The notes beneath the pieces were generated by a model. The model searched no databases. It was not told where the DNA came from and saw nothing but the letters and a program-made list of their open reading frames with translations. From Deltaproteobacteria bacterium RBG_13_61_14 (GTDB taxonomy: Bacteria; RBG-13-61-14), in NCBI GenBank assembly GCA_001797815.1, contig MGQK01000044.1, positions 14,669 to 20,505 of the forward strand: a stretch of 5,837 nucleotides of DNA, given 5' to 3'. Position numbers and translations under genes: made by a program. Shown here one piece after another: positions 3,051 through 5,017 of this stretch (its first letter is position 1; each line of letters opens with the position of its first letter).

Positions 3051-3079
3051 TTGACAAATGTCCAGACGATGCTTATATT
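3051..3079 (+). promoter_or_regulatory. Strong sigma-70-type promoter before the FmdB-family gene
   Basis: A perfect TTGACA -35 box (3051-3056), exactly 17 bases of spacer and a TATATT -10 box (3074-3079) sit in a locally AT-rich stretch. The predicted start is near 3086, leaving a leader of about 64 nt that contains the CIRCE inverted repeat and the RBS. The vegetative-type promoter plus downstream operator is the classical arrangement for HrcA-repressed heat-shock genes. Confidence 0.8.
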
Positions 3080-3094
3080 GTTAATGCTTGCTTC

Positions 3095-3121
3095 TTAGCA
3101 CTATTCATGGTAGAGTGCTAA
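3095..3121 (+). promoter_or_regulatory. CIRCE operator (HrcA binding site)
   Basis: The left arm TTAGCACTA (3095-3103), a 9-base spacer (3104-3112) and the right arm GAGTGCTAA (3113-3121) reproduce the CIRCE consensus TTAGCACTC-N9-GAGTGCTAA, with one mismatch at the last base of the left arm. The site lies at about +10 to +36 from the predicted transcription start and 16 bases before the RBS, where bound HrcA would block transcription. HrcA represses groESL and dnaK operons at normal temperature and is released on heat shock. Its presence here implies that the downstream FmdB-family gene, and probably the TPR gene, are heat-shock inducible. No groES, groEL, dnaK or hrcA gene is in the window. 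Confidence 0.92.
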
Positions 3122-3149
3122 CGCTCAATAAGCGGGTGGAGGATCGGTA

Positions 3150-3464
3150 ATGCCCATTTATGAATATGAATGCAACAAGTGTGGCGTCATTGAAGTCAAC
3201 CAGCGGATCATCGAATCGCCTCTGAGCAGATGCCCCCATTGTCGGGGTAAGGTCCATAGACTAATCAGCCAGACCTCGTTCCAGCTCAAGGGAACGGGCT
3301 GGTATGCTACTGATTATGGAAGAGGCAACGGCAAAGGCAAGGGCAGGGGCAAGAAAGAAGTGACCGAGCCGGCCGGCGAGACGACCACGGCTTCCGAGAC
3401 GTCAAAGACCAAGACCGAGACCGAGACCAAGAAAAACAGCACCGCCGGCACTACCTCAAAATAA
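3150..3464 (+). CDS. FmdB-family zinc-ribbon protein with low-complexity basic/Thr-rich tail
   Basis: This is a small cytoplasmic protein (104 aa) of the FmdB zinc-ribbon family. The N-terminus [12 protein letters not shown] is the family signature. Cys8, Cys11, Cys28 and Cys31 form the zinc-binding CxxC pairs, and [13 protein letters not shown] (44-56) is the conserved segment after the ribbon. The family is often annotated as a putative regulatory protein from FmdB of methylotrophs, but its biochemical role is not established. Residues 59-68 alternate Gly with Lys, Arg or Asn, and 70-104 are rich in Thr, Glu, Lys and Ser; this tail looks disordered. It is encoded by two hexanucleotide repeat tracts. 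GGAGGA (3138-3143), six bases before the ATG, fixes the start. The promoter and CIRCE operator immediately upstream indicate HrcA control. The next gene begins 16 bp downstream, so co-transcription is likely. Confidence 0.9.
3324..3353 (+). repeat. Hexanucleotide tandem repeat (GGCAAN-type, 5 copies) inside the FmdB-family gene
   Basis: Five in-frame hexamers run head to tail: GGCAAC, GGCAAA, GGCAAG, GGCAGG, GGCAAG. They encode Gly-Asn, Gly-Lys, Gly-Lys, Gly-Arg and Gly-Lys (residues 59-68). Copy-number change by slippage would add or remove dipeptides without shifting the frame. Confidence 0.85.
3405..3428 (+). repeat. Hexanucleotide tandem repeat (RAGACC, 4 copies) inside the FmdB-family gene
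   Basis: Two AAGACC and two GAGACC units in frame encode Lys-Thr, Lys-Thr, Glu-Thr, Glu-Thr (residues 86-93). This is a second simple repeat in the same low-complexity tail and, like the first, is a whole number of codons per unit. Confidence 0.85.
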
Positions 3465-3480
3465 CCACCGACTCTCGCGC

Positions 3481-4215
3481 ATGTTAATCCTCTTGACCTT
3501 CCTCTTGGCCGGGCCCGTGGCGGCGGCCAGCCCGAACGACGCCGGCCTTTTTTATGAACGCGCCCAGCTTGCCTTTCAGGAAAGCCAGGACCAAGCGGCC
3601 CTGGAGTGGCTGAGCCGGGCCACAAACTCCGAGCAAGAAGCGGGCCGGGGAGATTACGCCTCGGGCTTGGAAAAGGCCGCGGCCACCCTCTTTCAATGGG
3701 GCCAGGTCCGCTGGCAGGAAAAAAGCCGGGAGCTGGAATCCAAAGGTCTGCTTCGGAAAAATCAGCATCCGAAGTTTTTTTTCGAGGAGTTGCTGAGGCG
3801 CTATCCGCAAAGCGCCCGGGCCGATGACGCGGCGCTCCTGTTTTTGGAGGACGGCTTTTGTTACGAGTGGGGCGGATATCCAGACTGCCCGGCCTTTGAA
3901 ATCCGGCAATACGAAAATTTCTTAGAGACCTATCCTTTCAGCGACCGCCGCGGCCATGTTCTCTTGGAAATGGCGCGGCGCTACCAGGCCTTGGCCGAGC
4001 GCTATTCCGAGGAAGCGCCGTGGCACCACCAGGCTCGGGCCGAGCTGTGTGGAGCCATGTCCCAGACCTTATGGCAGGAGCTGATGGGCAGCTACCCCGG
4101 CACTCCTGAAGCCGAGGACGCGAGCAAGCACCTGGAGGAGATCCCGCCGGAGCAGCGGCCGGCGATCCCGATCCCGCCGGGAGTATTCGGCTATCTCCGG
4201 GAAGGTCAAGATTAG
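3481..4215 (+). CDS. Exported TPR-like repeat protein (BamD/YbgF-like helical repeats)
   Basis: This predicted periplasmic protein (244 aa) is built of tetratricopeptide-like helical hairpins. Residues 2-16 are a hydrophobic signal sequence ending in AAAS, with likely cleavage after Ala16; the n-region lacks positive charge and there is no lipobox. Three segments share the aromatic/Leu...YP.S/T..A..A pattern of BamD- and YbgF-type repeats: 99-121 (FFFEELLRRYPQSARADDA), 140-170 (QYENFLETYPFSDRRG) and 197-218 (LWQELMGSYPGTPEAEDA). Cys127 and Cys136 could form a disulfide after export. The C-terminus (222-235) is Pro-rich. The specific function is unknown; such proteins usually act as protein-protein scaffolds in the envelope. 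ATG 3481 is the only ATG, GTG or TTG after the in-frame stop at 3361. It has no visible Shine-Dalgarno and lies 16 bp after the FmdB-family stop codon, which suggests translation coupled to that gene and shared CIRCE control. Confidence 0.78.
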   Translation: MLILLTFLLAGPVAAASPNDAGLFYERAQLAFQESQDQAALEWLSRATNSEQEAGRGDYASGLEKAAATLFQWGQVRWQEKSRELESKGLLRKNQHPKFFFEELLRRYPQSARADDAALLFLEDGFCYEWGGYPDCPAFEIRQYENFLETYPFSDRRGHVLLEMARRYQALAERYSEEAPWHHQARAELCGAMSQTLWQELMGSYPGTPEAEDASKHLEEIPPEQRPAIPIPPGVFGYLREGQD

Positions 4216-4342: not shown

Positions 4343-5017
4343 ATGATTCACCCGAGCTACTTGGCAACGACTGTCGGCTTGAGCCTCGCGCTGTTCGGGC
4401 CGGCTCTCTTGTTCACGCCCGCGCACAAGCTCCTGGGCAAGCCCGAGCGTCTGGCGACGCGGATGTTCGAGCTGCTTTTCTTGTGGATCCTCGCCGGAGC
4501 GATAGTGGCCATCGTGGTCTGGTGGGAAGAGCTGCCCTTATCGTCCATCGGTCTCCGGCTGAGGTGGCAATCCGTGGTCCTGGGGCTTCTCTTGGCACTG
4601 TTGTTCATTCGGGTGGTGGCGCCTTTCCTCTATTGGATGATCAAAAAAATGGGCACTCCCGGCTTCGAAGGCGGCCTGGCCAAAATGGTCACTATGCCGG
4701 TCGGGTTCTTGCTTTTCGCGGCGCTGAGCGCCGGGGTGGTGGAGGAAACGCTTTACCGTGGTTATGCGATCGAGCGGCTGGCATCCCTCACCGGCAGCTA
4801 TTGGTGGGCGGGCCTGATCTCAACGACCGTTTTCGCTTTGCTGCATTGGCCGATGTGGGGGAGGGGTCCGGTGGCCACCTTCTTCGTGTCCGGTGGCTTA
4901 ATGGCGCTGTTCTACATTGGGACCCAGGACCTGGCGGCGTGCATGATCGCTCACGCGGTCACGGATGCCGTGGGCTTTATCACCGCCCAGCGCGCCAGCC
5001 GCGGCTCAGGAGGGTGA
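4343..5017 (+). CDS. CPBP-family intramembrane glutamic endopeptidase (CAAX/Abi type)
   Basis: This is an integral membrane protein (224 aa) of the CPBP (CAAX protease and bacteriocin-processing, Abi) family, whose members cleave within or near the membrane using a Glu-activated water. Hydrophobic segments lie near 8-25, 43-60, 77-98, 117-132, 155-168, 177-192 and 198-214. The three family motifs are present: EETLYR (Glu134, Glu135, Arg139), FALLH (Phe164, His168) and HAVTD (His204, Asp208). The catalytic set therefore looks intact. Bacterial members have been linked to bacteriocin self-immunity, peptide maturation and protein secretion, but the substrate here is unknown and no prenylated or peptide substrate gene is nearby. 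ATG 4343 is the first start after an in-frame stop at 4316-4318. Its RBS is poor, with AGG 11 bases upstream or GGGA only 2 bases upstream. The gene is 127 bp after the TPR gene, so co-transcription is possible but unproven. Confidence 0.9.
   Translation: MIHPSYLATTVGLSLALFGPALLFTPAHKLLGKPERLATRMFELLFLWILAGAIVAIVVWWEELPLSSIGLRLRWQSVVLGLLLALLFIRVVAPFLYWMIKKMGTPGFEGGLAKMVTMPVGFLLFAALSAGVVEETLYRGYAIERLASLTGSYWWAGLISTTVFALLHWPMWGRGPVATFFVSGGLMALFYIGTQDLAACMIAHAVTDAVGFITAQRASRGSGG

Follow-up and report, generated by a model that had tools for sequence, protein, structure and literature searches.

Why a predicted operator of the heat-shock repressor HrcA should lie before a gene for an FmdB-family zinc-ribbon protein is the question raised by a stretch of 5,837 nucleotides (hereafter the window) from Deltaproteobacteria bacterium RBG_13_61_14. 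An earlier note, made from the sequence of the window, had described a consensus sigma-70 promoter with a 17-bp spacer and, at +10 to +36, a CIRCE element with 17 of 18 matching arm bases directly before such a gene, and had proposed a heat-shock or proteostasis role that could give the FmdB family a function. We followed up these claims in the window, in the whole genome and in other bacterial genomes.

Architecture of the fmdB locus

The region around fmdB contains the following features:

3051..3079, + strand: sigma-70-type promoter, TTGACA-17-TATATT (consensus scan and sequence)
3095..3121, + strand: CIRCE operator TTAGCACTA-N9-GAGTGCTAA, 17/18 arm bases, predicted HrcA binding site
3138..3142, + strand: GGAGG ribosome-binding site, 7 bases ahead of the start codon (direct reading)
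3150..3464, + strand: FmdB/Ruc-family protein of 104 aa, with zinc-ribbon cysteines 8, 11, 28 and 31, an 11-letter motif and a hydrophilic tail of ~50 residues
3481..4215, + strand: predicted exported protein of 244 aa, with a signal-peptide-like start (by inspection) and weak YbgF/BamD-type TPR similarity

The -35 hexamer TTGACA (3051-3056) and the -10 hexamer TATATT (3074-3079), separated by 17 bases, matched the consensus at 11 of 12 positions. This was the best of four promoter-like sites found in 1.55 kb, against 0.8 expected; the others matched at 9/12. The CIRCE consensus that we tested was the inverted repeat TTAGCACTC-N9-GAGTGCTAA at a promoter, and the full sequence at 3095-3121 was found to be TTAGCACTA-TTCATGGTA-GAGTGCTAA, with a spacing of 9. 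It begins 15 bases past the -10 hexamer, and 28 bases separate its end from the ATG start codon of fmdB at 3150. The promoter and the operator were therefore both as the earlier note had described them, and its placement of CIRCE at about +10 to +36 holds provided that transcription starts ~7 bases past the -10 hexamer, as we infer. CIRCE would thus overlie the initially transcribed region, where HrcA is predicted to bind.

The FmdB protein matched TIGR02605 (E 4e-18, 65.1 bits, curated cut-off 31.3) and PF09723 (E 1e-14, 54.2 bits, curated cut-off 34.4). Its CxxC...CxxC zinc ribbon at residues ~8-32 and hydrophilic C-terminal tail form the layout of Ruc (Rv0991c) of M. tuberculosis. The tail is ~90% polar, charged, G or P, and is probably disordered, as judged from this composition rather than by a dedicated disorder program. 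The gene at 3481-4215 begins 16 bases past fmdB and no terminator was found between the two, so it is probably cotranscribed with fmdB and would probably share its promoter. The TPR similarity of its product was far below the cut-off (E 7.5e-5), and a Pfam search with this protein gave no match.

CIRCE and HrcA in the genome

In the 4.74 Mb genome, which is 95% complete so that additional sites could be missing, exactly two CIRCE sites were found at up to 3 mismatches, each with 1 mismatch. One is the fmdB operator and the other directly precedes the groES-groEL operon, whose genes were recognised by sequence reading; groES-groEL is a textbook HrcA target. Base composition predicts ~0.002 sites with 0-1 mismatch for the whole genome, and 4e-8 for any given 100 bp. 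When the window was shuffled 200 times, no shuffle contained a site at up to 3 mismatches, and the reversed pattern, used as a control, had no sites in the same genome. The genome-wide counts, the shuffles and this control ruled out a chance palindrome. The genome has two further FmdB-family genes, neither of which is preceded by CIRCE; this counts against the explanation favored below.

A profile search revealed a single HrcA gene (PF01628, E 4.7e-55), with frames resembling grpE and dnaK behind it. No CIRCE was found at this locus at up to 6 mismatches in 3.66 kb around hrcA. As far as seen, the HrcA regulon here comprises groESL and fmdB. The operator consensus, the spacing and the repressor are those of classical CIRCE/HrcA control of groESL and hrcA-grpE-dnaK, and groESL carries the other site of this genome; in contrast to the classical arrangement, the hrcA-grpE-dnaK genes lack CIRCE in the stretch retrieved, whereas fmdB has it. 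Published delta-proteobacterial HrcA regulons contain groESL, hrcA-grpE-dnaKJ and rpoH only (PMC545781).

The genome-wide CIRCE search and the check for an encoded HrcA, both proposed in the earlier note, were thus favorable. Its view that CIRCE controls fmdB rather than a chaperone operon was only partly upheld: CIRCE does precede fmdB, but groESL carries the other site, and fmdB itself probably encodes a chaperone.

Recurrence of the CIRCE-fmdB arrangement

To see how far the arrangement extends, 84,980 GTDB species genomes were scanned for the right half of CIRCE followed by an FmdB start. The scan gave 13 loci, 12 of which proved to have the left half as well, although it had not been sought, and no more than 1 mismatch over the complete site. 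A match in Bifidobacterium (L007), with 4 mismatches in all, was rejected as chance. The 12 CIRCE-fmdB loci belong to Chloroflexota (including Dehalococcoidia), Actinomycetota (mostly Propionibacteriaceae) and one further bacterium, and HrcA was found in 9 of these 12 draft genomes.

We then compared best-scoring fmdB matches, which are not a random sample, within several groups. In the order of a Propionibacteriaceae genome (G007), CIRCE with up to 3 mismatches lay within 200 bp upstream of 14 of the 30 best-scoring matches and nowhere else in 90 kb of control sequence. In the order of a Dehalococcoidia genome (G011), CIRCE preceded 5 of 29 such matches and was absent elsewhere in 81 kb; the starts of L112 and L132 were misplaced by the script, which left the picture unchanged. 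A broad sample of Actinomycetota showed CIRCE before 4 of 24 best-scoring matches. Two results count against a general link, namely a broad Chloroflexota sample (0/29 best-scoring matches) and the phylum of G005 (1 of 12 fmdB genes). CIRCE before fmdB thus recurs across groups, but in a patchy fashion.

The nearest genomes, G001 and G002, belong to the same order and another family and encode FmdB homologues (52% and 44% identity). Neither HrcA nor CIRCE was found in these two drafts, both of which are incomplete, which leaves the site without confirmation from a close relative. The joint absence of repressor and operator is consistent with a functional site and lends it no independent support. 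Conservation before orthologous genes, which the earlier note had set as a check, therefore gave a divided result: the site recurs in several phyla, but it is absent in the nearest genomes and patchy elsewhere. The FmdB homologues of G001 and G002 adjoin a CYTH-like gene.

The genes behind fmdB differ among the loci. A dnaJ-type gene comes after CIRCE-fmdB in two Dehalococcoidia genomes, at distances of 10 and 23 bases; these loci (L015:2614-3526 and L106) appear to place a Ruc-like protein and a J-domain cochaperone together under HrcA control. In three loci of Chloroflexota/Dehalococcoidia (L008, L012 and L019), a D-Tyr-tRNA deacylase gene (dtd) lies close behind CIRCE-fmdB, and this order suggests heat-shock control of D-aminoacyl-tRNA quality control.

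Comparison with Ruc and a possible role for the FmdB protein

Becker et al. (2020) found that ruc and three Hsp60/Hsp10-family genes are the only four targets directly repressed by HrcA in M. tuberculosis (PMC7448276). The Ruc level rises at 45 degrees C, and at 37 degrees C an hrcA mutant contains the protein in abundance (PMC7448276). Ruc binds one zinc and, once oxidised, stops aggregation and aids DnaK-dependent refolding, so that it was described as a redox-activated chaperone feeding Hsp70 (PMC7448276). Homologues of Ruc are widely distributed among bacteria and often lie close to chaperone genes, with dnaK, dnaJ, grpE, clpB and hrcA among the reported neighbors (PMC7448276). Deletion of ruc in M. 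tuberculosis caused no strong phenotype, a point against the explanation favored below. No literature pairing CIRCE or HrcA with FmdB was found, because the paper on Ruc does not use the word FmdB.

The arrangement in the window shares several features with HrcA-repressed ruc and differs from it in others. Both proteins have a zinc ribbon with four cysteines (C8, C11, C29 and C32 in Ruc (PMC7448276); 8, 11, 28 and 31 in the window protein) and a hydrophilic tail, which is disordered in Ruc and probably so here. Both genes have an HrcA site at the promoter, a predicted one in the window, and in both organisms the HrcA regulon is otherwise limited to Hsp60/Hsp10 genes. The link between Ruc and FmdB was drawn from this shared architecture and from the same invariant residues in the N-terminal halves of the CIRCE-bearing relatives, with Ruc compared by its description. 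In contrast, M. tuberculosis ruc is also driven by SigH, with overlapping SigH and HrcA sites, whereas the window gene, from a distant lineage, has CIRCE placed after a consensus sigma-70 promoter, and its next gene differs. Hsp33 offers a comparison of mode of action only, as it also holds zinc on four cysteines, is activated by oxidation and delivers clients to DnaK; it is unrelated in sequence, and the window protein is not a member of its family.

Based on these comparisons, we propose, with a probability of roughly 0.8, that the palindrome is a functional HrcA operator, that fmdB is derepressed together with groESL under stress and that its product is a Ruc-type redox chaperone for DnaK. 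The proposal builds on the operator and on how rare such sites are in the genome, on the encoded HrcA, the domain layout and the recurrence of the site before fmdB elsewhere, all of which come from the present analysis. In unstressed cells, HrcA bound to CIRCE, beside the -10 box and the transcription start, would repress fmdB and probably also the gene after it. Release of HrcA through GroEL titration is known from Bacillus and relatives; here, heat or another proteotoxic stress would draw off the GroEL that HrcA needs for activity, and repression of fmdB would be lifted jointly with that of groESL. Oxidation of the four cysteines of the Ruc-type product may then lead to zinc loss, and the oxidised protein would bind unfolded proteins and hand them to DnaK. 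HrcA repression, heat induction and redox chaperone activity are results from M. tuberculosis, carried over here to the organism of the window.

Two other explanations have to be weighed. A palindrome that arose by chance or survives as a relict, and is not bound by HrcA, would fit the lack of conservation in G001 and G002, but we consider this highly improbable in view of the ~0.002 sites of such quality expected genome-wide, the empty window shuffles, the presence of HrcA and the position of the site exactly at the promoter of a gene whose relatives share it. An operator that is real and HrcA-controlled, with an FmdB protein that serves some other stress-related function (it might be a regulator, bind metal, associate with the ribosome or act as an adaptor for DnaK/DnaJ), is a more serious competitor, albeit an unlikely one. 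The FmdB family has many members that vary outside the zinc ribbon, Rv0991c is the only one demonstrated to be a redox chaperone (PMC7448276), and the three dtd loci have no chaperone gene in that place. The cysteine layout and hydrophilic tail shared with Ruc, the two CIRCE-fmdB-dnaJ loci and the chaperone neighborhoods in the literature speak instead for the redox chaperone.

Since chance does not account for the operator, HrcA is encoded and the arrangement recurs in several phyla, the proteostasis role suggested in the earlier note is supported, as it also is by Ruc (PMC7448276) and by the dnaJ co-location in two Dehalococcoidia genomes. The novelty of assigning a function to the family was overstated there, as the chaperone function of Ruc and its regulation by HrcA were already known in M. 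tuberculosis; the fmdB locus here is a real case of a known system, and a largely expected one. What is added here is the breadth of the CIRCE-fmdB arrangement, beyond M. tuberculosis and in a very different lineage. We lean towards the view that HrcA control of Ruc-type FmdB proteins is widespread rather than peculiar to mycobacteria and has been repeatedly gained and lost (in Actinomycetota, Chloroflexota and the lineages of the window and G005), with dnaJ or a D-Tyr-tRNA deacylase gene sometimes joining the operon. If so, Ruc would be a core partner of GroEL and DnaK in the HrcA response. The fmdB locus of the window also lends distant-lineage support to the view that zinc-ribbon proteins of the FmdB family act as stress chaperones, and it extends the HrcA-Ruc link to an organism in which the dnaK locus seems to be without CIRCE. 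As a practical rule, CIRCE before fmdB would pick out the likely chaperone among several FmdB paralogues. If HrcA control is as widespread as we suppose, the gene for the predicted exported protein after fmdB would represent a further, unstudied HrcA-regulated gene.

Downstream of this gene pair, the window contains a gene for a CPBP-type (CAAX, Rce1-like) intramembrane protease (4343-5017; PF02517, E 3e-17). On the minus strand at 3-1703, inspection of the translation revealed a gene resembling indolepyruvate ferredoxin oxidoreductase alpha, which suggests anaerobic amino-acid metabolism.
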